Of a stretch of DNA of 22,101 nucleotides, positions 3,467-21,701 are shown one piece after another. The translations under genes and the position numbers were made by a program. The notes beneath the pieces are model-generated. The model ran no database searches. It worked only from the letters and a program-made list of their open reading frames with translations, and was not told where the DNA came from. Source of the DNA: a virus. Position 1 is the first letter of the stretch. Every line of letters starts with the position of its first letter. The stretch is taken from positions 1 through 22,101 of the IMG/VR virus record IMGVR_UViG_3300021180_000052. One strand, given 5' to 3'.

Positions 3467-4060
3467 GTGGAAATATTGGTTCATATAACCGGCGTGACGC
3501 CGCTAATTTGCAATCGATTCAGCGATGAAGCGGCGATCATAGCGTCCGGCGGAGTACGCGGCAGTTCTGCGGGCGCCGAACGCAGAACACCTCTCGATAT
3601 TTGCGACAGCAAGCTCTACCGGGGGCTCGACGGCGAGCTGATAATCCCGCAACCCAACCTTCTGAGAAGCCTTGTCGATGGCGGCAAGTTTCACAAAGTC
3701 GGAAAAAAACAAATCACGACCAAAGAAGAATCAATGATGTTCGCTTGTGTCGATATCGAGGGCGCCGAAATCCCCTTGATCCACAAACAGGCGTGGAAAG
3801 TCGACACGAGGCCGGTCGTTATTCCGGCAACCAAGGGGCGAATCCTCGCGCACCGGCCGATGTTCGATGATTGGCGCTTGGAATTTACGGTCCAGCTCGA
3901 CACGAGCATTCTCGGACCTGGGATCTTCCGGTCGATTGTCGACGACGCCGGGAAGCGGGTGGGGCTCGGCGATTTTCGGCCGGCGCGGAAGGGTCCGTAT
4001 GGGCGCTATCGCGTTGATCATTGGGCGGTCGTGGAACAGGCGATCGACGTAGCAGCTTAG
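3467..4060 (+). CDS. Unrecognised 197-aa protein embedded in GGCNN arrays
   Basis: Starts at GTG 3467, with AAGGAG ending 9 bases upstream and the leader element GAGTCGAA between. The N-terminus MEILVHITGVTPLICNRF is beta-strand-like. The middle holds LYRGLDGELIIPQPNLLRSL, followed by a Lys-rich stretch. The C-terminus has a conserved-looking GLGDFRPARKGPYGRYRV. The strand-rich start with TGVTPL and the late glycine-rich Arg segment remind me of Cas7/RAMP-type RNA-binding ferredoxin folds, but that is impression only. Its codons are less extreme than the surrounding DNA, and its stop is followed at once by the array. A role in binding the array or its RNA is speculation from position. Confidence 0.8.
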   Translation: MEILVHITGVTPLICNRFSDEAAIIASGGVRGSSAGAERRTPLDICDSKLYRGLDGELIIPQPNLLRSLVDGGKFHKVGKKQITTKEESMMFACVDIEGAEIPLIHKQAWKVDTRPVVIPATKGRILAHRPMFDDWRLEFTVQLDTSILGPGIFRSIVDDAGKRVGLGDFRPARKGPYGRYRVDHWAVVEQAIDVAA

Positions 4061-4213
4061 CGATGCACGGCAGGGCATGGCGTGGCTCGGCGGGGCGCGG
4101 CAGCGCGCGGTCGGGCAGGGCTGGGCGTCGCTAGGCAGGGCTCGGCTTGGCGGAGCGCGGCTGGGCTTAGCACTGCTTGGCTCGGCTGGGCGGCGCACTG
4201 CGCGGCAAGGTGA

Positions 4214-4244
4214 GGATATTTTATTGATTGGACGCGGGACGGCT
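4214..4244 (+). repeat. AT-rich spacer block, copy A
   Basis: The core GGATATTTTATTGATT (4214-4229) is followed by GGACGCGGGACGGCT (4230-4244). The core is repeated in copy B and, with substitutions, in copy C; the 15-base tail is repeated exactly in copy C. It breaks the pentamer phase. Confidence 0.85.
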
Positions 4245-4376
4245 GGGCTAGGCCGAGCTGGGCGAGGCAAGGTCCGGCGCGGCGCGGCTGTGCAAGGCGG
4301 GGCCATGCGGAGCGGGGCTTGGCATGGCATGGCGAGGCACGGCGTGGCAATGCGCGGCGCGGCTTTGCGAGGCGAG

Positions 4377-4392
4377 GGATATTTTATTGATT
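4377..4392 (+). repeat. AT-rich spacer block, copy B
   Basis: The 16-base core GGATATTTTATTGATT is identical to copy A. Here it is followed directly by pentamers (AGGCGAGGCTCGG) without the GGACGCGGGACGGCT tail. Confidence 0.85.
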
Positions 4393-4669
4393 AGGCGAGG
4401 CTCGGCTAGGCTTGGCGAGGCGGCGCGATGCAGGGCGCGGCACGGCATGGCGGTGCTCGGCACAGCAGGGCAGGGCTCGGCGCGGCGAGGCCGTGCGGGG
4501 CCTTGCGTGGCACGGCCCGGTAGGGCTGGGCAAGGCTACGCTTTGCGAGGCGCGGCGTGGTTTGGGCTCGGCAGGCCCCGGCCATGCTAGGCGCGGCTTG
4601 GCACGGCGTGGCGTGGTCGGGCAAGGCGGGGCAAGGCGACGCGAGGCGACGCACGGCTCTGCGAGGCGA

Positions 4670-4700
4670 GGATTGTTTGTTGATTGGACGCGGGACGGCT
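4670..4700 (+). repeat. AT-rich spacer block, copy C
   Basis: The core GGATTGTTTGTTGATT (4670-4685) matches copy A at 13 of 16 positions and carries the same 15-base tail GGACGCGGGACGGCT (4686-4700). Spacing between cores is 163 and 293 bases, so the blocks are not evenly placed. Confidence 0.85.
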
Positions 4701-4980
4701 CGGCTCGGCGCGGGCTGGGCGGTGCTCGGCTTGGCTCGGCGAGGCACGGCAGCGCGTGGCGGGGCAAGACAAGGCGAGGCTTATCCGGGCGGGGCACGGT
4801 TAGGCGGGGCTTAGCGTGGCGGCGCAAGGCAAAGCGCGGCGCGGCGCGGCGAGGTCGGGCGAGGCAGGGCTCGGCTTGGCGTAGCGCGGCGGGGCGATGC
4901 TCGGCCCTGCGCGGCAGGGCTTGGCGTGGCGAGGCGACGCACGTCCCGGCACGGCGGCGCGTGGCTCGGCAAGGCGAGGT

Positions 4981-5005
4981 GGGGGCGGCTTCGGCCGCCC
5001 CCTTT
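4981..5005 (+). terminator. cUUCGg tetraloop terminator closing the pentamer array
   Basis: GGGGGCGGC (4981-4989) pairs perfectly with GCCGCCCCC (4994-5002) around TTCG, the very stable C(UUCG)G loop. TTTCATTT follows on the + strand. The T residues are on the + side, so it best terminates rightward transcription through the array. It also sits at the 3' end of the leftward recombinase gene, where it would act as a 3' stabiliser or weaker terminator. Confidence 0.8.
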
Positions 5006-5658
5006 CATTTGACGTCGACCATCCGGCTCACGACTGATCGCGTGAACGGGCGGCCGGACGAGCTGACGAAACCCTGCTTCTCCAGCGCCATGCGAACCGC
5101 GTTTAGGCTTTTGCCGGTCTTGCGCAGATCGCTAGCGATCTTGACCATTTCCGGGTTCATCTGAGCCCAGCTCAGCCGACCTTCGCACTTGCCGAATTGG
5201 GCCTTCTTGCGGTCGCGCGCGCCGCGCAGCTTGGCGACCGTCAGCGCCTTGTCGAATTGCGCGACGGCGCCCAAAATTTGCCGAATCAGCGTCGCCGTCG
5301 GCGTGTCGTCGAGGAAGGCGTTCGGGCTGTCGACGGCGACCAGCTCGACGCCGAGTTGTTGAAGCATCCGCCAACCCGTTTCTTGGATCAGCAAATCGCG
5401 AGCGAACCTGTTCGCGGTTTCGAGAAGGATCATTCGCACGCCGTTCGAGGTGACGCGCTGGAGCAATCGGCGGAATCCCTCGCGTTGGTCGAGCGGATCG
5501 GCGCCGGAGACGGCAGCATCGTAAAATTCCTCGACGATCTCGATGTCGTTGTGCGCCGCGTAGCGGCGGACGGCGGCCTCCTGGCGGGCCAAGCTGTCTT
5601 TGTCCGCGCCGACGTTGGTCGCGGACGAGGTCCGGTAGTATCCGACTGCTTTTTTCAT
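5005..5658 (-). CDS. Serine recombinase of the resolvase/invertase family
   Basis: 217 aa from ATG 5658. The N-terminal catalytic domain opens with KKAVGYYRTSS, giving the Y-x-R-x-S signature (R9, probable nucleophile S11). It continues with a DSLARQ helix (about 21-26) and the second arginine cluster NRFARD (R84, R87). A short C-terminal region (about 145-217; KTGKSLNAVRMALEKQGF, then RSVVSRM) looks like a helix-turn-helix DNA-binding domain. The size fits small resolvase/invertases, not large serine integrases. It lies in one unit with the 5750-5947 gene, 91 bases downstream of it. It could resolve multimers, invert a segment or mediate integration; no crossover site is identified. Confidence 0.93.
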   Translation of the reverse strand: MKKAVGYYRTSSATNVGADKDSLARQEAAVRRYAAHNDIEIVEEFYDAAVSGADPLDQREGFRRLLQRVTSNGVRMILLETANRFARDLLIQETGWRMLQQLGVELVAVDSPNAFLDDTPTATLIRQILGAVAQFDKALTVAKLRGARDRKKAQFGKCEGRLSWAQMNPEMVKIASDLRKTGKSLNAVRMALEKQGFVSSSGRPFTRSVVSRMVDVK

Positions 5659-8961: not shown

Positions 8962-11718
8962 GTGGCTGGACTGGGGGGACTCGGCGCAATCAGGCTGCCG
9001 CCGTCGCCCATCGACGGCGGTCCTGATGATTATGATGACTTAGCGAGCCGTTTCGCGCCGAAGACCATCAACCTCGACGCGGACGACGGCGATATCGACT
9101 ACGATCGCGCGACCAAGATCGAGACCGAAGACGGCGGCGTCATCGTCTACGTCGGTCCCAGGCGCATTGCGAAAGAGGATACGGAGTTCGGCGACAACCT
9201 CGCCGAATCGCTCCCCGAGAGCCAGCTCAACTCGATCGCCGACGAGCTGATTCGGCTCATCGATCAGGACAACGAATCGCGCCGCGAATGGCTCGATACG
9301 CGCGCTCGCGGCATGGAGCTGATGGGCCTGCGCATCGAGGCGATGCGTTCTAACGGCAGTGACGGCAGTGCGCCGCTTGAGGGCCAGTCGCAGATCCGGG
9401 CGACGCTATTGGCGGAAGCGGTGATCAGATTCGGCGCCAATGCCTTCGCCGAGTTGTGTCCCAGCGATGGGCCAGCCAAGGTCTCCGAAGACACATCGGG
9501 CTCGACTGAAGACCTCGACGTGCTTTCCAGTGCGTTGGAGCACGATCTCAATCACTACTTGACCACCACCGACAAGGTTTGGGTTCCCGACACGGACCAG
9601 ATGCTCCTCAGAGTGGGTCTCGATGGGTGTGTCTTCAAGAAAATATACCATGACCCGATCCTTAGAAGGCCGGTAAGTCGTGCGGTATTCGGCGATGATC
9701 TAATCGTCAACAATTCCTCTACTTCGATCTATGACGCGGGCCGAATCACGCACCGGGTGTTCATGCGCCCGTCGATGATACGCCGTATGCAGCTCTGCGG
9801 AGCTTATCGCGACTGCGATTTGAGCGAACCTGGGTACATCGAGAAGACGCCGACCGAGATGCAGTCGGAGCAGATCTCAGGCATCCGCAAATTCGACTCC
9901 TGGGAGCAGGACGATCGCGATCACGAGATCCTCGAAACCTACTGCGAACTCGACCTAGAGGGGTTCGAGCATGAGACCGACGGATCACCAGACGGCCTTG
10001 CGGTCCCCTATAAGGTCGCCATACACCGAGAGACAAGAACAGTCCTCGATCTCAGAAGAAACTGGGACGAAGACGACGAAATGTGTTTGCCAAAAACGTA
10101 TTTCGTCCAGTTTCCATTCATCCGGGGCTTTGGTTTTTATGCTATTGGCCTTAGCCATCTACTTGGTAATATTACAAACGGGATAACAGCTGCTTGGCGA
10201 GAGATCGTTGATGCTGGCATGTTCGCCAACTTCCCTGGCCTTCTAGTTGCGAAAGGGGCCGCTAGACAGAATAACAACATATTCCGTATTCCGCCAGGGG
10301 GGTCTGCCGAAGTCGAGACGGGAGGCCTCCCGATTCAGCAAGTCGCGATGGGGATGCCGTACAAATCCCCGGACGCGGTCTGGACGAGCTTCGTTCAGCA
10401 GCTCAATCAGGAGGGCAAGAGCCTCGGCGGCACGGCCGAGATCATGGTCGGCGAGGGCCGCCAGGACGCGCCGGTCGGAACGACGCTGGCGCTGATCGAA
10501 CAGGCCATCAAGCCCTTGATGGCGACGCACAAGAGGTTGTGCGCAGCCCAAAGCGACGAGCTTCAGCTCCTGTGCGAGCGCTTCAAAGAGGACCCCGAGG
10601 CGTTCTGGCGCGCCAACAAGCGCAAGGCCTGGAATTGGGACTCGGAAGTCTTTCTCCAGGCGCTCGAACGGAGCGAAATTGTCACGCGCGCGGACCCGAA
10701 TACGGCCTCGCATCTGCAACGGATGCTGCGCAACGCGGCCCTTTATCAAATGGCGAAGGATGAGCCAGGGGCCTTCAACGTCACAGTGATCCGCCGCATG
10801 TGCATTCGCGGCATCGGCTTCTCGAACCCGGACCAGTTCATCAATCCGATGCCGCAAGGCCCGCCGCCGGACCCGAAAGCCCAGGCTGCGATGCTCACCG
10901 GGCAGGCGGCGATGCTCGATGCGAACACGCGGGCCGGCCAGCTCGCTTTCGACAAGCAAAACGCTCCGCTGGAAGCGCAGCGGCAACAGGTCGAGAGCCA
11001 GACCAAGATCGAGACGTCGAAGATGGCGCTGCAAAAGCAGCAGCTCGCGACCAAGACGGCCGGTTTCCAGGCCCAGAACGAGGCCAGAAAGCCTCAGATG
11101 GAACAACAAAAGCAGGTTCACGAGAGCCAGGAGGCTCAAGCCGATCGCGCACACGACACGGCGAAGCAATTGCGCGACCAAGCGCACGAAATGAATCTGG
11201 AGAGAGGAGGTTGGGCACACGAAGATCAGCTCCATGCGCGCGATCAGCAGCATGAGCAGCAGATGGGCGCTCGCGATCAGATGCACGAGCGCGTCATGGG
11301 CGCGCAGCAGCAGCGATTCGACGCTGCGCAGGGCATGCAGGAGCGACAATTCGACGCCGCGAACGCTCAGCAGGACCGCGTGCACGAAGATCGGATGGGT
11401 CAGCGCGAGCAGGCGGTCGAATCGCAGCGCGAAGAGCGCGGTCGACAGCACGAAGAGCATATGAGCGAGCGCACGCAGCAGCACGAGCGCGTCATGGGCC
11501 AGCAACAGGCTCGTGCGAAGATCCAAGAGGTCAAGGCGCGGCCCGCGCCGCAGCGATCGAGTAGCTCGGGCTCAGATCGACAGAGAAGGGCGAGCGGCGG
11601 TGCCGTCCAGCATCACATCGAGACGCCCTATGGGCTCGCCCGCCGCGCTCCCGACGGCGAGTTCTATGTCCAGCATCCTCACACCGGGCAGTATTTCAGG
11701 ATTCGGAGGCGATCATGA
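8962..11718 (+). CDS. Phage portal protein with a long C-terminal coiled coil
   Basis: The portal is the dodecameric ring at the head vertex through which terminase packs DNA. GTG 8962 follows TGGAGG. 918 aa is long for the family. The N-terminal 630 residues look like podovirus-type portals (ESRREWLDTRARGMELMGLR, then GQSQIRATLLAEAVIRFGAN, and FGFYAIGLSHLLGNITNGI). From about residue 633 a Pro-rich linker leads into some 240 residues of Gln/His/Glu/Arg-rich helix with irregular repeats (QQHEQQMGARDQMHERVMGA). This is probably a coiled-coil barrel extending into the head. A short C-terminal domain (IETPYGLARRAPDGEFYVQH) follows. The 9600-10250 stretch has more A/T-ending codons than its flanks, hinting at mosaicism. 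Confidence 0.88.
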   Translation: MAGLGGLGAIRLPPSPIDGGPDDYDDLASRFAPKTINLDADDGDIDYDRATKIETEDGGVIVYVGPRRIAKEDTEFGDNLAESLPESQLNSIADELIRLIDQDNESRREWLDTRARGMELMGLRIEAMRSNGSDGSAPLEGQSQIRATLLAEAVIRFGANAFAELCPSDGPAKVSEDTSGSTEDLDVLSSALEHDLNHYLTTTDKVWVPDTDQMLLRVGLDGCVFKKIYHDPILRRPVSRAVFGDDLIVNNSSTSIYDAGRITHRVFMRPSMIRRMQLCGAYRDCDLSEPGYIEKTPTEMQSEQISGIRKFDSWEQDDRDHEILETYCELDLEGFEHETDGSPDGLAVPYKVAIHRETRTVLDLRRNWDEDDEMCLPKTYFVQFPFIRGFGFYAIGLSHLLGNITNGITAAWREIVDAGMFANFPGLLVAKGAARQNNNIFRIPPGGSAEVETGGLPIQQVAMGMPYKSPDAVWTSFVQQLNQEGKSLGGTAEIMVGEGRQDAPVGTTLALIEQAIKPLMATHKRLCAAQSDELQLLCERFKEDPEAFWRANKRKAWNWDSEVFLQALERSEIVTRADPNTASHLQRMLRNAALYQMAKDEPGAFNVTVIRRMCIRGIGFSNPDQFINPMPQGPPPDPKAQAAMLTGQAAMLDANTRAGQLAFDKQNAPLEAQRQQVESQTKIETSKMALQKQQLATKTAGFQAQNEARKPQMEQQKQVHESQEAQADRAHDTAKQLRDQAHEMNLERGGWAHEDQLHARDQQHEQQMGARDQMHERVMGAQQQRFDAAQGMQERQFDAANAQQDRVHEDRMGQREQAVESQREERGRQHEEHMSERTQQHERVMGQQQARAKIQEVKARPAPQRSSSSGSDRQRRASGGAVQHHIETPYGLARRAPDGEFYVQHPHTGQYFRIRRRS

Positions 11719-12408: not shown

Positions 12409-15400
12409 ATGGTTGACGATCTCGGCGACTACGACATCCAGCCGGTCGATGGAAATCCATTCGGCTCGATGGCGTCGTCGCCGAACGACTATGATGTCTC
12501 GCCGGTAGATCACGACCCCTTCTCCAGCGCGCCGCCGACGATCGCGGGGCACGTCGCGGCGTCGCCGGACCCCAGCCAGCCGATGACGGCGAAGTATATC
12601 GCCGCCCGTTCCCAGGAATCAGCGAACCCGTACACGCCGCCTCTCTTCGATCGCGCGGGCAACTATGTTTCCGAGACCGCGCAGCGCTATGGCGTGCCAA
12701 CCCAAGGCGCTGAGCGCATGGGCTCGGCCACGAGCACCGGCCTGGAGGCGGCGTCCTATGCGCCAATCGTCGGCGCGCCGCTGACGGCGGCCGAGGGGGT
12801 CGACGCCTACAGCCGAGGCGATATGGCGGGCGCGGCGGCTTCAGGCTTCGGCACGCTCGCCAGCTTCTTCGGTCCATGGGCCAAGACGGCCGATCTCGGC
12901 GCGATGAAGATGGCGCAGAAGATGGCCAGGAAGGGCGCGCCGGCCGAGGACATCATCGGCAAAACGGGCTGGTTCCAAGGCCCGGAAGGCCTGTGGCGGT
13001 TCGAGCGGCCGGATGAGGGCGCGACCTTCACCGGCCAGGGGAATTTCAGCCGAAACCTTACGCTGGGCGACGTCTACCAGAACCCCGAGCAGTACGCCGC
13101 CTATCCGAACTTGGCGAAGTCTCCGGTGGAGATGCTGGACCCGGAATATGCCGACCGAATGGGGATGCTGGGCGGCTTCGCGCCAACCAAATTTCCGCGC
13201 GTTGGAGCGCCTGGAAAGTTTTTGTTCCGCCACGACATGCCCACTGATTCGACGGTCCCGATCCACGAAACGACGCATGCAATTCAAGACATCGAGGGCT
13301 TCGCTCCCGGCGGCTCGAACCTCAATCCGATGCAAGTCCTGTCGACGAAATCGGCGCAGCCGTTCTTCAACAAGCGGCTCGACCGATCTTTAGAGCCGAT
13401 GGGGTACAACGATTATCTGCGGGACAGCGTCAACGCCGCTCGCGCGGGGCAGAAGGGAGTTCCGATCGCAAGCCGCGATGACGTCGCGGAGATGGAGCAC
13501 TTCAAAGGCTTGGTCCGCGCCGGCCAGGAGCAGATCCCCGGTGGGGCGGCCGAAGAGGCTGCATGGCAGGCAGGCACGGACTGGTATACCCATCAGGCCG
13601 GCGAGGCCGAGGCGCGGAACGCGGCGTTCCGCGCCGGCAATCCGCTTATCGCGAAGGCCTTTCACCCATGGGAGACATCCGACGTCCCGTGGGATGAGCT
13701 GATGCTGCCGCCGTACCGGGGGAGCGGCGGCCGGGTCGGGTTCGATGACGGCGGCGGCGCGGGCGGCGGTCCTGTGCAGCTCAACGCGGACTTGCGGCGG
13801 CGTCTCGCGATGATCACTCAGCCTCGCCACGGGCTCGCCGATGGCGGAGACCCCGATGCCGCTGGGTTCGCCGCGCTCGACAAGATGGTGCAGGACGATC
13901 GCGCCACCCAGCCGCCGGACCAGCCGGCCGCTCCAACTCCGGCCGCGCCGCAAACTTGGTACGGGAGGTGGGGCCAGACGCTCGGGGACGAGCTTAGCTC
14001 TGTGGGGCCCGCAGTCAGCGCGGCGACGGAAGGCCTCGGGAAGTTTGGAGCCAGCGTCGCCGCCAACCCGGTGGGCTATGGCCCGTTGAGCTTCCGCACC
14101 ATGAGCCCAGAGAGCGAGGCCTCGCTCGGCCGCGATTTCACTGGGATGCTCGACTCGCCGATGCTCGGCGAGGTGGCTGGTATGCCTCGGGCGCCGGAGG
14201 CGGCGGCGACGCGCGTTGGGGCGACGGGCTCGGACGTCTCGGCTGGCGCGTCCGCGTCTCGCGCGCTGATCATGGACATCAATGGCGTCAAACGTCACAT
14301 CGACCCCGAGTTCCCCGAGAGTCGCGTCGGAACCGCAGTCCCGTGGAAGGAGGACGCAAACGCTCCGATCGATGCCGAACAGGCCGCCCATGCGAACAAC
14401 GACGCGCATGTCGGCATGGAGTTGGCGGATACAGTGCCGAGCTATGGCAAATCCGTCGCCAACATGGTCCGCAACGGCAGGATTCCCTACGTCAAGGTGG
14501 CGCCAGGGGCGAGCGACGCGGCGGTGCAAGAAGCGCTAATCGAGCACATGAAGGACAATCTCCTCGGCCTCTACAGCCGAGTAAGCGGCGCGGTGCGCAG
14601 TGGGTCGAAGCTTTGGTACGAGGGCGCGAATAGCCGATCGCAGGGCATCGCTCAGACCCACGATATTCCGCACGAGAACGCGGCCGGCGTTGTCGCGGCG
14701 ATGTCGCCGCAGAAAGACTGGGACCAGAACGTCGCGCTTGCGGACTGGGTGGCTCACACCGCTGGCACGACGGACCCCAGCGCCACGATGAGCCCTGCGA
14801 TGACCGACTGGGTCAATAAATACGCTCTCCGCAAGGATTCGGAGCGCGTCGTGACCGACCCGACAACTGGCAAGGAGACGCGGTTCAACGCGCGAACTGG
14901 CGAGCAGATGGCGCCCAATTCAGTCAGCCGGGAGGACGTTCAAAGGCAACTCGCCGAGGTCAATGGAGTGCCATGGGGTCAGATGGACCCGGACCAGAAG
15001 GCCTTCTACACCCGCGCCTATTACGAGGCGCATGGGCCGCCTGATCATCTGATCGCGACCGATGACCAGACCGGCGCCCAATCGCACTGGATCGATGAAA
15101 AGGGCGACCGCAAGTACGGCTATTACATCAACAATCCCGACGGCACTCACGACGGCGTGCTCGCCCGTTACGGGGATGAGTTCCCCAACAAAAAGGGCCA
15201 GCCAATCCCAGTCTCGTGGGGATCGACCGGCGAAGTCTCGAACGCCATTAAGGCGTTTGGCGCGAACAGCATGAGCGACATTTCAGAGGCGCTCGGCGGT
15301 GGCCATAAGGTGCGCTCGTTCTTCAACAACATCATCGCGCCATGGTCGCGGAAGGGCGATGTCACGAGCGATACGCACGCGGTGGCGGCGGCCCTCTTAC

Positions 15401-15777
15401 GCCCGCTTGGGGCGGGCTCGCCCGAGGCCGCGTCTGGCATGGGGGCGGCCTCCCCCGGCAATGCTGAAACTGGGCTCAATGGATTTTATCCGCACGTCGC
15501 CGAGGCCTATCGCAGGGCGGCCAGGGACGCGGGGGTTCTGCCGCGCGAGCTGCAATCGATCACCTGGGAGGCGCTTCGCGGTCTGTGGTCAGCGAGAGAG
15601 AAGAGCGCCAAATCGAACGTGAGGACGGGCTTTACGTCTCAAACCGACATAACCAACGGCATCTGGCAGCGTTACCACAACAACCAGATGACGATGGAGG
15701 ATGCCCACAACGCGATTCTAGGTCCGCAGGGCGAGCGGATCGATCCGCCGCGCTGGTTCAATACCTTCCGGCCCTAG
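12409..15777 (+). CDS. Large polyvalent (ejection-type) protein with an HExxH motif
   Basis: 1122 aa starting on the base after the previous stop. The last 90 residues (from about 1033: AYRRAARDAGVLPRELQSIT, then WEALRGL, ending RIDPPRWFNTF) look like the conserved C-terminal domain of phage polyvalent proteins, which I recall as the DUF7178 type. Near residues 286-290 lies HETTHAIQ, an HExxH zinc-metallopeptidase signature inside a predicted folded region (about 190-430). Gly-rich linkers (GGRVGFDDGGGAGGG) split the modules. A middle domain (about 640-990) contains AAMSPQKDWDQNVALADW. Polyvalent proteins are packaged and injected with phage DNA to modify the host cell. Protease activity is unproven and the third zinc ligand is not identified. 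It converges with a minus-strand gene, the stops overlapping at 15774-15777. Confidence 0.8.
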   Translation: MVDDLGDYDIQPVDGNPFGSMASSPNDYDVSPVDHDPFSSAPPTIAGHVAASPDPSQPMTAKYIAARSQESANPYTPPLFDRAGNYVSETAQRYGVPTQGAERMGSATSTGLEAASYAPIVGAPLTAAEGVDAYSRGDMAGAAASGFGTLASFFGPWAKTADLGAMKMAQKMARKGAPAEDIIGKTGWFQGPEGLWRFERPDEGATFTGQGNFSRNLTLGDVYQNPEQYAAYPNLAKSPVEMLDPEYADRMGMLGGFAPTKFPRVGAPGKFLFRHDMPTDSTVPIHETTHAIQDIEGFAPGGSNLNPMQVLSTKSAQPFFNKRLDRSLEPMGYNDYLRDSVNAARAGQKGVPIASRDDVAEMEHFKGLVRAGQEQIPGGAAEEAAWQAGTDWYTHQAGEAEARNAAFRAGNPLIAKAFHPWETSDVPWDELMLPPYRGSGGRVGFDDGGGAGGGPVQLNADLRRRLAMITQPRHGLADGGDPDAAGFAALDKMVQDDRATQPPDQPAAPTPAAPQTWYGRWGQTLGDELSSVGPAVSAATEGLGKFGASVAANPVGYGPLSFRTMSPESEASLGRDFTGMLDSPMLGEVAGMPRAPEAAATRVGATGSDVSAGASASRALIMDINGVKRHIDPEFPESRVGTAVPWKEDANAPIDAEQAAHANNDAHVGMELADTVPSYGKSVANMVRNGRIPYVKVAPGASDAAVQEALIEHMKDNLLGLYSRVSGAVRSGSKLWYEGANSRSQGIAQTHDIPHENAAGVVAAMSPQKDWDQNVALADWVAHTAGTTDPSATMSPAMTDWVNKYALRKDSERVVTDPTTGKETRFNARTGEQMAPNSVSREDVQRQLAEVNGVPWGQMDPDQKAFYTRAYYEAHGPPDHLIATDDQTGAQSHWIDEKGDRKYGYYINNPDGTHDGVLARYGDEFPNKKGQPIPVSWGSTGEVSNAIKAFGANSMSDISEALGGGHKVRSFFNNIIAPWSRKGDVTSDTHAVAAALLRPLGAGSPEAASGMGAASPGNAETGLNGFYPHVAEAYRRAARDAGVLPRELQSITWEALRGLWSAREKSAKSNVRTGFTSQTDITNGIWQRYHNNQMTMEDAHNAILGPQGERIDPPRWFNTFRP

Positions 15778-16282: not shown

Positions 16283-17245
16283 ATGGGCGAACACTCACAG
16301 AAGGCCTTCACGACCGACAAACTCAAGAAGTTTGAGGTCTCAGGCAAAAACGGCGGCTCCGGCAACGGAGACAAGGGCGCTTCGGCGGACGATTATGGGC
16401 GGAAAGCCGCCCGCACGAGCGATTCTTCTGCGTTCGCTGCTGGCGGAGCCGCGAAGGCGCCGTCGCTCGGTCGCGCCGGTCGCGCCAATGGCGGCCGGAC
16501 GCGCGACATTTCCAAGCTCACCGATTCCGGCCCGAAGGGCTACGGCGATCGGCCGCTGATCCGCGCCAAGGGCGGCCGGATTGGCAGGCAGCTCGGCGGC
16601 GCGTTGCCCCCAGGCGCTGCCGGGACGCCCCCAGGCCTGACCACGCCGCCCCCCGCCGGCCAGCTCCCTGGACTACCGGGCCTGGGCCGCAAGAAGGGCG
16701 GCCGAGTCGGCCGCGATGCGGGTGGACCTGTCGAGCGCACCCGTGGGTATTCGGCGCCGGACGATAAGTGGGATGATACGACCAAGCAGTGGGCGGACGA
16801 TCAGATGTCCGCCGCCCATGATTTCGATGCTGGCCAACGCGCCAAGGGCGGTCGAGTGGGCCGCGCGCACGGCGGCAAGGCCAAGGGCGCCAAAGGGAAG
16901 ACCGTCGTCAACGTCATCGTCGGCGGCGACAAGGGCCAGCAGCCACCCCCGACTCCGCCCATCATGCCGCACCCCATGGTGCCGCCTCCACCTCCGCCGC
17001 CGCCGCAGCAGGGCATGCCGCCTATGCCGCCTCCTGGCGGGATGCCTCCAGGCGCTGGCATGCCGCCGCCCCCGCCGAGACCGCCCATGCCGCCTCCGGG
17101 TGGCATGCCGCCGGGGATGCCGCCTCCAGGCATGGGCCGCGCGCACGGCGGCCGGATCTCCGAGAAGTTCGGTGCGGGCTCCGGCCGAGGTCGGATGGAG
17201 AAGACCAAGCGCCAGGGTCACGGGAAAGTGAAGCTAGCCGAATGA
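16283..17245 (+). CDS. Gly/Arg-repeat and proline-rich 320-aa protein
   Basis: ATG 16283 follows GAGGGTCAAGCC. The protein is mostly low complexity. It has repeated basic motifs of the form GGRxGR or GGR (AKGGRIGRQLGG, KKGGRVGRDAGG, AKGGRVGRAHGGK, RAHGGRISEKFG) spaced by Pro-rich linkers. One long Pro/Met/Gly segment (residues about 230-290) includes a run of eight prolines. Near residue 55 lies GGAAKAPSLGR, also found at the end of the 75-aa protein at 7806. It may be a virion or scaffold-associated DNA-binding protein, possibly co-packaged; that is inference. The TGA overlaps ATG 17242. Confidence 0.75.
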   Translation: MGEHSQKAFTTDKLKKFEVSGKNGGSGNGDKGASADDYGRKAARTSDSSAFAAGGAAKAPSLGRAGRANGGRTRDISKLTDSGPKGYGDRPLIRAKGGRIGRQLGGALPPGAAGTPPGLTTPPPAGQLPGLPGLGRKKGGRVGRDAGGPVERTRGYSAPDDKWDDTTKQWADDQMSAAHDFDAGQRAKGGRVGRAHGGKAKGAKGKTVVNVIVGGDKGQQPPPTPPIMPHPMVPPPPPPPPQQGMPPMPPPGGMPPGAGMPPPPPRPPMPPPGGMPPGMPPPGMGRAHGGRISEKFGAGSGRGRMEKTKRQGHGKVKLAE

Positions 17246-17463
17246 GCACTTTTGGCGAGAAGGCAGTCGGCTTGGACTTCAATCCCAGCGGCGACAAGAC
17301 GGTGACGCAGCTCAAGCAGCTGTACGCGCAGATCATCGACATCTGCGACGCAGCGCGCACAGCTGGCCCCAAGGGCGAGAAGGCGCGGCTGTGGTCGATC
17401 GCCATTACCGAGGCGCAGGGCGCTCAAATGTGGGGAGTTAAGGCGGCCACATGGAAGGACTGA
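17242..17463 (+). CDS. Acb2/Tad1-family immune-signal sponge (anti-CBASS/anti-Thoeris)
   Basis: 73 aa, ATG 17242 overlapping the preceding stop. Residues 5-18 read GEKAVGLDFNPSGD, then a helix (VTQLKQLYAQIIDICDAA), then RLWSIAITEAQ and AQMWGVKAATW (61-71). This GEK-VG--FNPSG ... A-MW-VKA-TW pattern is, to my knowledge, that of the Acb2/Tad1 helical-hairpin family (listed as DUF7681). Family members assemble as multimers that bind cyclic nucleotides or cADPR-type signals, blocking CBASS or Thoeris defence. Length and motif placement fit a complete protein. Membership is by pattern recognition from memory; which signal this one binds cannot be read here. Its end overlaps the next gene by 13 bases. 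Confidence 0.85.
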   Translation: MSTFGEKAVGLDFNPSGDKTVTQLKQLYAQIIDICDAARTAGPKGEKARLWSIAITEAQGAQMWGVKAATWKD

Positions 17464-17771
17464 AGCTTGAGACGGCCGAGGGGCGGAGAAAGGTCTTTGA
17501 GATGATGGATGCAGGCCTCCCTACCGGCGAGAGCAAAACGCGGACCGAGCTGGGCGATCGATTCCGTGAGTTCGCGGCGCTCTGTGACGACAATCCGCAA
17601 TTCGTGGCGGCGGGCATCATCGCGCGGCCGAAGGAGACCATCGTCGCGACGTTCGTCGAGACCCAAGAAAGGGACGTCGAGATCGTCGCGAGGGGTCTCT
17701 ATCACGCCTGCCAAGAGCTGCCGGAAAACCCCGGCTATTTCGCCGCCGATGGCGAGACGAGGTACGGCTGA
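17451..17771 (+). CDS. Hypothetical 106-aa protein after the Acb2/Tad1-like gene
   Basis: ATG 17451 lies inside the end of the previous gene, so coupling is likely. The product is acidic and mostly helical (MEGLKLETAEGRRKVFEMMD, then TELGDRFREFAALCDDNPQF, then VATFVETQERDVEIVARGLY). No catalytic motif is visible. Its position beside a counter-defence gene makes it worth testing as another accessory factor, though a structural role is equally possible. Confidence 0.75.
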   Translation: MEGLKLETAEGRRKVFEMMDAGLPTGESKTRTELGDRFREFAALCDDNPQFVAAGIIARPKETIVATFVETQERDVEIVARGLYHACQELPENPGYFAADGETRYG

Positions 17772-17995
17772 TGGACGCGATGTCGATCTTCGTCGCGAAG
17801 AAGCTGACCGAGCGCATCGAGGCCAAGCAGAAGGAAATGCTGCGCCCGCTGATCAACGGCGCGGCGGCTGACTTCCCCGACTACAAAAAGCGCGCCGGAT
17901 ATCTGGAAGCGCTCGGCCATGTCCTCGAATGGATCGAGCAAATCGACAACGAAGAAGACACAGACGGAAGAGGTCCGCTTGCCCGCGCATCATAG
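17771..17995 (+). CDS. Hypothetical 74-aa helical protein
   Basis: ATG 17771 shares a base with the previous TGA. The product (VAKKLTERIEAKQKEMLRPL, then KKRAGYLEALGHVLEWIEQI) is two charged helices with a short acidic tail. The pattern is common among small phage proteins near head genes. The 3' end overlaps the GroES-like gene. Confidence 0.72.
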   Translation: MDAMSIFVAKKLTERIEAKQKEMLRPLINGAAADFPDYKKRAGYLEALGHVLEWIEQIDNEEDTDGRGPLARAS

Positions 17996-20786: not shown

Positions 20787-21701
20787 ATGGCCGTCTCAGT
20801 CGCCCAGGCCTATGACCTGCTGTTCCCCGGCCTCCGCAAGGTGGCCGGACAGTATAAGGACCTCGATCGGATCTATCCCAAGATCTACAAGGTCGACAAA
20901 AGCTACATGTCCGTGGAGCGCACCGCTTCGATGCGCTACCTCGGCCTTGCTGCACTGAAGAATGAAGGCGGGCCGACTACCTTCGACAATCAGGCGGGCG
21001 AGCGTTACGTCTATAACCAATACCACAAGGAAATTGGCCTCGGGTACGCCTTTACCCGCAAAATGATCGACGACAACCTCTACAAGAGGCAGTGGCAGCC
21101 ATCGAATCTCGGTCTGCAAAAAAGCTTCAACCAGACCAAAGAGATTTACGGCGCCTATCCCCTCAACATGGCGACTATTTACGATCCCACCATCCTCGGG
21201 GATCAGCAGCCGCTCTGCTCCCTCAATCATCCGATCGACACGGGCGTCGTTCCGAACCGCTTCGCCATCGATATGGATCTCAACGAGGCCTCGCTCCTCA
21301 ACGCGCAGGCCTCGATTCGCGGCTCGTTCCGTGACAACGCCGGCCTCCGCATGCAGGCTCGCGCCCGCAAGCTCGTCGTGCCGATCGCGCTGGAGCCGAT
21401 CGCCATCCGGCTGCTCCGGACCGTCTTACGGCCCGGTACGAACGACAACGACGTCAACGCAATCCCTGAGACGTCAGGCGGCATCCCCGATGGGCATCTC
21501 GTCCACGACTATCTGACGTCGCCGACCGCTTGGTTCGTGATGACCGATCAGGAGGGCTTGCTGTACCTCCAGCGCGTGGCCTTTGAGCTTGATATGCAAG
21601 TTGATTTCACGAGCGACAACTTGCTGGTCAAGGGCTACGAGCGCTACAGCTTCGGGTACTTCGACTTCCGCGCCCTCTGGGGCTCGTTCCCGACTCAGTG
21701 A
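20787..21701 (+). CDS. Major capsid protein (HK97-type fold expected)
   Basis: 304 aa, ATG 20787 after GAGGAGGAGTAACCC, the strongest ribosome binding site in the window, as expected for the most abundant virion protein. The sequence (YKDLDRIYPKIYKVDKSYMS, then ALKNEGGPTTFDNQAGERYV, then GLGYAFTRKMIDDNLYKRQW) and the C-terminus (VKGYERYSFGYFDFRALWGS) look like phage capsid proteins of the Mu/T7-like size class. It follows scaffold and decoration genes in the standard order. I identify it from composition, context and recalled family pattern, not from a structure. Confidence 0.85.
   Translation: MAVSVAQAYDLLFPGLRKVAGQYKDLDRIYPKIYKVDKSYMSVERTASMRYLGLAALKNEGGPTTFDNQAGERYVYNQYHKEIGLGYAFTRKMIDDNLYKRQWQPSNLGLQKSFNQTKEIYGAYPLNMATIYDPTILGDQQPLCSLNHPIDTGVVPNRFAIDMDLNEASLLNAQASIRGSFRDNAGLRMQARARKLVVPIALEPIAIRLLRTVLRPGTNDNDVNAIPETSGGIPDGHLVHDYLTSPTAWFVMTDQEGLLYLQRVAFELDMQVDFTSDNLLVKGYERYSFGYFDFRALWGSFPTQ

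Follow-up and report, generated by a model that had tools for sequence, protein, structure and literature searches.

The Acb2/Tad1 fold is among the best-studied means by which phages silence cyclic-nucleotide immunity, and the family is already known and represented in Pfam; to our knowledge, its characterised members are of only two types, those carrying the tyrosine motif and Tad1. The Acb2 protomer consists of a short helix followed by two long antiparallel helices, while Tad1 carries a beta-sheet domain at its N-terminus (PMC12043709). In T4 Acb2, Y8 is needed for cyclic dinucleotide binding, which is abolished by its mutation (PMC12657218), and the substitution T68M lowers binding affinity (PMC12657230). 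A dilemma for such sponges, in which CBASS is set against Panoptes, has also been described (PMC12657218).

Genomic setting of an Acb2-like gene

The window considered here, the whole 22,101-nucleotide stretch of viral DNA analysed, carries an open reading frame of 73 codons with an ATG start on the plus strand (17242-17463), translated as MSTFGEKAVGLDFNPSGDKTVTQLKQLYAQIIDICDAARTAGPKGEKARLWSIAITEAQGAQMWGVKAATWKD. From a motif pattern, the first-pass annotation had proposed an Acb2/Tad1-type immune sponge inside the head module; the pattern is present in the product, as GEKAVGLDFNPSG and MWGVKAATW, and the placement is borne out by the surrounding genes for TerL, portal, GroES and major capsid protein (MCP). 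The order in the window is TerL, portal, a Lys/Gly/Arg- and Pro-rich protein, the sponge gene, 17451, 17771, GroES, further genes and MCP, with the following features:

89-1753, TerL (phrog_38, 5.7e-68)
5005-5658, minus strand, serine resolvase/invertase between the terminase and portal genes, on the opposite strand (PF00239, 1.2e-26)
8962-11718, portal (homology to relative L199, which matches phrog_1216)
12409-15777, 1122-aa ORF with two domains, DUF7178 and LPD23 (large polyvalent protein associated)
16283-17245, plus strand, Lys/Gly/Arg- and Pro-rich protein of 320 aa, upstream flank of the sponge slot
17242-17245, plus strand, ATGA, where the stop of the upstream gene overlaps the sponge start by 4 nt; upstream edge of the cassette (sequence; blastn breakpoints 17245/17247)
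17242-17463, plus strand, FNPS-clade Acb2-like sponge gene, 73 aa (ORF, PF24729, phrog_717, AlphaFold2 (AF2), hhalign, dN/dS)
17451-17771, plus strand, small uncharacterised gene, 106 aa, accessory (absent in L237, L245, L246 and L273)
17771-17995, plus strand, small gene, 74 aa, core (accompanies GroES in almost every relative within the phage group)
17919-18386, plus strand, GroES-like co-chaperonin, downstream flank (PF00166 5.9e-6; phrog_3188)
20787-21701, plus strand, MCP, which defines the phage group (61.7% to the annotated MCP of MW202675.1)

The two small downstream genes had been suggested as possible further accessory genes, which holds for the variable 17451 and fails for 17771, a companion of GroES that looks core. 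ORF 17451-17771, which is overlapped by the 3' end of the sponge gene, gave no family match, and in L238 a diverged form of it occupies the slot alone. The product of 12409-15777 is strongly diverged in relatives (34-38% where portal shows 63-89%). Elsewhere in the window, a tract of about 900 nt (4055-4990) follows a strict 5-base period, (NNGGC)n, with a lag-5 identity of 0.59, shuffles giving 0.33 (at most 0.37), and is broken by three AT-rich TTTATTGATTGG-like units at 4220, 4383 and 4676; the tract looks non-coding and adjoins the serine resolvase gene.

The sponge reading frame is a real gene under purifying selection, with dN of 0.08-0.12, dS of 0.65-0.81 and dN/dS of about 0.13-0.14 in comparison with L003 and L004. 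A chance ORF is further argued against by the many homologous loci recovered, comprising 29 viral loci in the first scan, at least 567 viral loci in a profile scan, and 37 loci in a scan of bacterial genomes, distributed over Bacteroidota, Proteobacteria, Actinomycetota and others. Across 114 aligned FNPS-clade sequences, G5, F13, N14, K25 and A29 are 100% conserved, and P15, Q62, M63, K67 and T70 are conserved at 96-99%. Five FNPS-type copies occur in the single genome of Avibacterium paragallinarum NCTC11296 (L043-L047), where they probably sit in repeated prophages.

Family membership and predicted fold

A profile search against the Acb2/Tad1 family, set beforehand as the refuting check, found a match, and the family call is upheld by several lines of evidence. 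PF24729 (Acb2_Tad1_hairpin) matches the window protein at 29.0 bits, just over the curated cut-off of 27, is recovered at 28.4 bits in a six-frame search of the window, and is found in 26/26 aligned relatives (best E 4e-13); distant relatives score 37-51 bits, the sole failure in the second distant set being L073, the most distant relative tested (17.5 bits, under the cut-off). The top PHROG of the window protein, phrog_717 (7.8e-5), also contains PaP2 Acb2 (9.8e-33) and T4 Acb2 (2.3e-32). In a Pfam-independent test, hhalign of the 114 FNPS-clade sequences against 67 canonical Acb2 sequences, gathered with PaP2 gp26 as the query, gave a probability of 95.3% (E 2e-8, score 44.7), while 150 column-shuffled queries reached scores of at most 20 and probabilities of at most 11.6%; column shuffles replaced circular profile shifts as the control because the alignment is local, making shifts a poor control.

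A single-sequence search of the PDB with the window protein returned no match, and no relevant model was found in PADLOC or NCBIfam. By profile, T4 Acb2 is the best PDB homologue of the window clade (E 0.28); a PDB profile match at 2.9e-8, to a designed repeat protein, was rejected as spurious.

An AF2 model built on a 26-row alignment of the window protein and its relatives (mean pLDDT 96) has helices at residues 4-9, 19-40 and 46-70 and no strands, reproducing the three-helix topology of Acb2. Comparison with solved structures by VIA-align placed T4 Vs.4 at the top (Z 7.2, rmsd 2.6, 60 residues, 22% identity) and PaP2 Acb2 at Z 5.4, and a Foldseek search of the PDB gave no match at E < 1. 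The predicted fold is thus consistent with Acb2 and is not proof of it, because unrelated helical hairpins score about equal to T4 Vs.4 in VIA-align. Databases already place relatives in the Acb2/Tad1 family, since the best matches in a viral structure library are proteins named Acb2/Tad1 hairpin domain-containing. As a check, an HQYR-type protein, described below, was also modelled and compared. In architecture, the window protein is nearer to Acb2 than to Tad1, as the N-terminal beta domain of Tad1 would not fit within it; by its sequence it is not a canonical Acb2 but a member of a divergent clade with an altered binding edge.

Acb2 binding residues kept and replaced

Alignment of the window protein with PaP2 Acb2 pairs K25 with K26, R49 with R67, T56 with T74, Q59 with Q77, M63 with M81 and K67 with R85, all six residues being about 85% or more conserved in both clades. 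The residues K26, R67 and T74 of Acb2, the first two of which we take to be pocket/interface residues, are retained in the FNPS clade (K25 100%, R49 92%, T56 92%), and T56 also aligns with T68 of T4 Acb2.

Two further positions depart from the canonical pattern. The tyrosine of canonical Acb2 (Y11 in PaP2, equivalent to T4 Y8), present in 100% of the 67 canonical sequences, has no tyrosine counterpart in the FNPS clade, where the invariant F13 is a nearby aromatic in a loop of different length; in place of the canonical N-terminal motif IKGYRDLS stands AVGLxFNPS, which is just as invariant. At the C-terminus, canonical QPxSF gives way to TW, such that the stacking residue F82 of T4 aligns with T70 (99%), followed by W71 (88%), again a nearby aromatic. 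In the FNPS clade the hairpin core has thus been kept and the binding edge rebuilt, and the altered N- and C-terminal motifs suggest a ligand range unlike that of canonical Acb2. These two departures count against canonical Acb2 status and not against an Acb2-like mode of working.

Exchange with a second Acb2-like gene type at one site

Eighty loci with a related MCP were fetched, 23 of which cover the slot at an MCP identity of at least 85%. The slot holds an FNPS gene in five, an HQYR-type gene in eight and neither in ten, although two of these ten carry a sponge elsewhere (FNPS in L260, HQYR in L265); both types together in one contig were not found among the related-MCP loci examined. Slot content (FNPS, HQYR or neither) differs even among phages with 96-99% identical MCP. 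The features of the exchange are:

17248-17542, plus strand, segment of the window without a nucleotide match in the HQYR-carrying loci L230, L231, L234 and L239 (blastn)
HQYR-type genes in the FNPS slot: L230, 6541-6780; L231, 510-809; L234, 6489-6776; L242, 6536-6766; L245, 6682-6915

In L230, L231, L234 and L239 (MCP 98-99% identical), blastn identity to the window stops at 17247, at the ATGA junction, and restarts at 17543 inside ORF 17451, whereas in L242 it stops at 17245 and restarts at 17765; in L237 the FNPS gene is kept, 17451 is missing and identity restarts at 17771. The boundaries of the swap are sharp, and the exchanged unit is a clean cassette. HQYR-type genes score 57-67 bits on PF24729, against 66 for PaP2 Acb2, and the first ten PDB matches of their profile are all Acb2 homolog 43 (9PTQ), PaP2 Acb2, T4 Acb2 or Tad1. 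Of the evidence from genomic context, this replacement of one sponge-family member by another at a single site argues most strongly that the FNPS gene has the same kind of role.

Proposed function and rival explanations

The best explanation, held at a probability of about 0.7, is that the window protein is a sequestering sponge for a cyclic-oligonucleotide immune signal. It would act as a small, Acb2-like oligomer, predicted to be hexameric, binding the cyclic-nucleotide alarm signal that the host makes after infection, with a CBASS-type cyclic di- or trinucleotide as the candidate ligand and perhaps a type III CRISPR cyclic oligoadenylate as another. With the signal held uncleaved by a sponge that is probably expressed late, the cell-killing effector of the host would stay off during virion assembly, and swapping with an HQYR-type sponge at one site may allow a phage to change its ligand range as hosts change. 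In a weak ecological test, CD-NTases (SMODS) occur in 6/23 FNPS-clade host genomes against 23/121 genomes of the one family used as background, with no clear enrichment.

A sponge of the same family might instead take up a Thoeris-type signal (a cADPR isomer) or another nucleotide-derived signal in place of CBASS cyclic oligonucleotides, given that PF24729 spans both Acb2 and Tad1, that an R..S.A.T...A.MW core is common to the FNPS family and Tad1, and that the Acb2 tyrosine motif is replaced, with Acb2 K73 corresponding to Ile in the window protein and Leu in Tad1; this is unlikely, as the N-terminal beta-sheet domain of Tad1 is missing from the AF2 model and the position of the Tad1 RENAC Asn varies in the FNPS clade (W/Y/C/F). 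It is quite improbable that the protein binds a house-keeping messenger (c-di-GMP, c-di-AMP or an alarmone) and reprogrammes the host without an immune role: strong motif invariance across phyla would suit a fixed universal ligand, but the same degree of invariance is seen in canonical Acb2, whose sponge action against CBASS is proven, and presence/absence and swapping among near-identical phages are typical of counter-defence genes.

In the window the gene has portal and capsid genes on either side, and across the clade its nearest recurrent neighbours are terminase and portal genes; this could point to a small virion or head-assembly protein with a helical hairpin by chance, two-helix hairpins being common enough to make fold matches alone weak. 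Such a role is highly improbable, however, since the gene shares sequence homology with Acb2, is missing in phages with 96-99% identical MCP and the same flanking genes, and is not a constant companion of the conserved head genes at a set position (5/23 slots FNPS, 8 HQYR, 10 neither). In other phages it is located elsewhere: EcP1, which is N4-like, has it in an early/middle region, Pmp11 has it flanked by lysis and terminase genes, DSL-LC05 has it with TerL on one side and GroES/portal on the other, and in FCV-1 an SSB gene is nearby. The 991 ORFs neighbouring FNPS genes fall into 615 clusters. Because it is found in early, lysis and packaging regions elsewhere, the FNPS gene is accessory and not part of the virion, and a structural role was rejected on synteny.

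Beyond the preferred reading of a sponge for a cyclic-oligonucleotide immune signal, a further possibility has been considered, namely that the signal bound by the FNPS clade lies beyond the known Acb2/Tad1 range, as the tyrosine motif and C-terminal stacking residue of the dinucleotide edge have been rebuilt; this proposal is doubtful. If true, it would point to a host signalling defence with a messenger that is new or not yet tied to phage sponges, while the exchange slot would serve to switch ligand range between sister phages.

Comparison with known systems

What is new to us is a large, separate FNPS clade with a rebuilt binding edge, exchanged one-for-one with a tyrosine-motif sponge. 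No paper on this clade was found in the open-access literature; systematic Acb2 screens exist, as indicated by the PDB entry 'Acb2 homolog 43', so some FNPS member may have been assayed. The clade, with at least 567 viral contigs and several bacterial phyla, offers a natural experiment on the evolution of ligand range, and the FNPS/HQYR exchange bears on the dilemma between CBASS and Panoptes.

Tad1 (PDB 7UAV, 8KBH) has the same Pfam hairpin domain and the same (R)xxxxAxTxxxxAxMW core as the window protein; its chains, however, are of 125-138 aa and include the N-terminal beta domain that the window protein lacks, and membership of Tad1 was rejected on this architecture, the 73-aa chain being modelled by AF2 without strands. 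Acb2 of the Pseudomonas phage PaP2/PaMx33 (gp26; PDB 8H2J, 8IXZ) has PF24729, phrog_717 and the three-helix topology in common with the window protein, from which it differs in length (93 aa against 73 aa; pairwise identity about 20%), in its invariant N-terminus (QHKKIKGYRDLS against FGEKAVGLxFNPSG) and in its C-terminus (QPxSF against TWKD). In T4 Acb2 (Vs.4, PDB 7UQ2), T68, M75-W76 and R79 correspond to T56, M63-W64 and K67 of the window protein, whereas Y8 and F82 are without an identical counterpart, and the position of PaP2 R67 and window R49 is Asp61. The HQYR-type proteins (L230, L234, L245 and others; nearest PDB entry 9PTQ) occupy the same slot in sister phages, share the helix 2 pattern R..SxAxTxxxxAxMWAVKxxT with the FNPS clade and align to it by hhalign at 95.6%; unlike the FNPS clade, they have retained K73 and the YR.L.D.EK motif of canonical Acb2, and in the tree they form a separate clade with a support of 0.90, that of the FNPS clade being 0.75.
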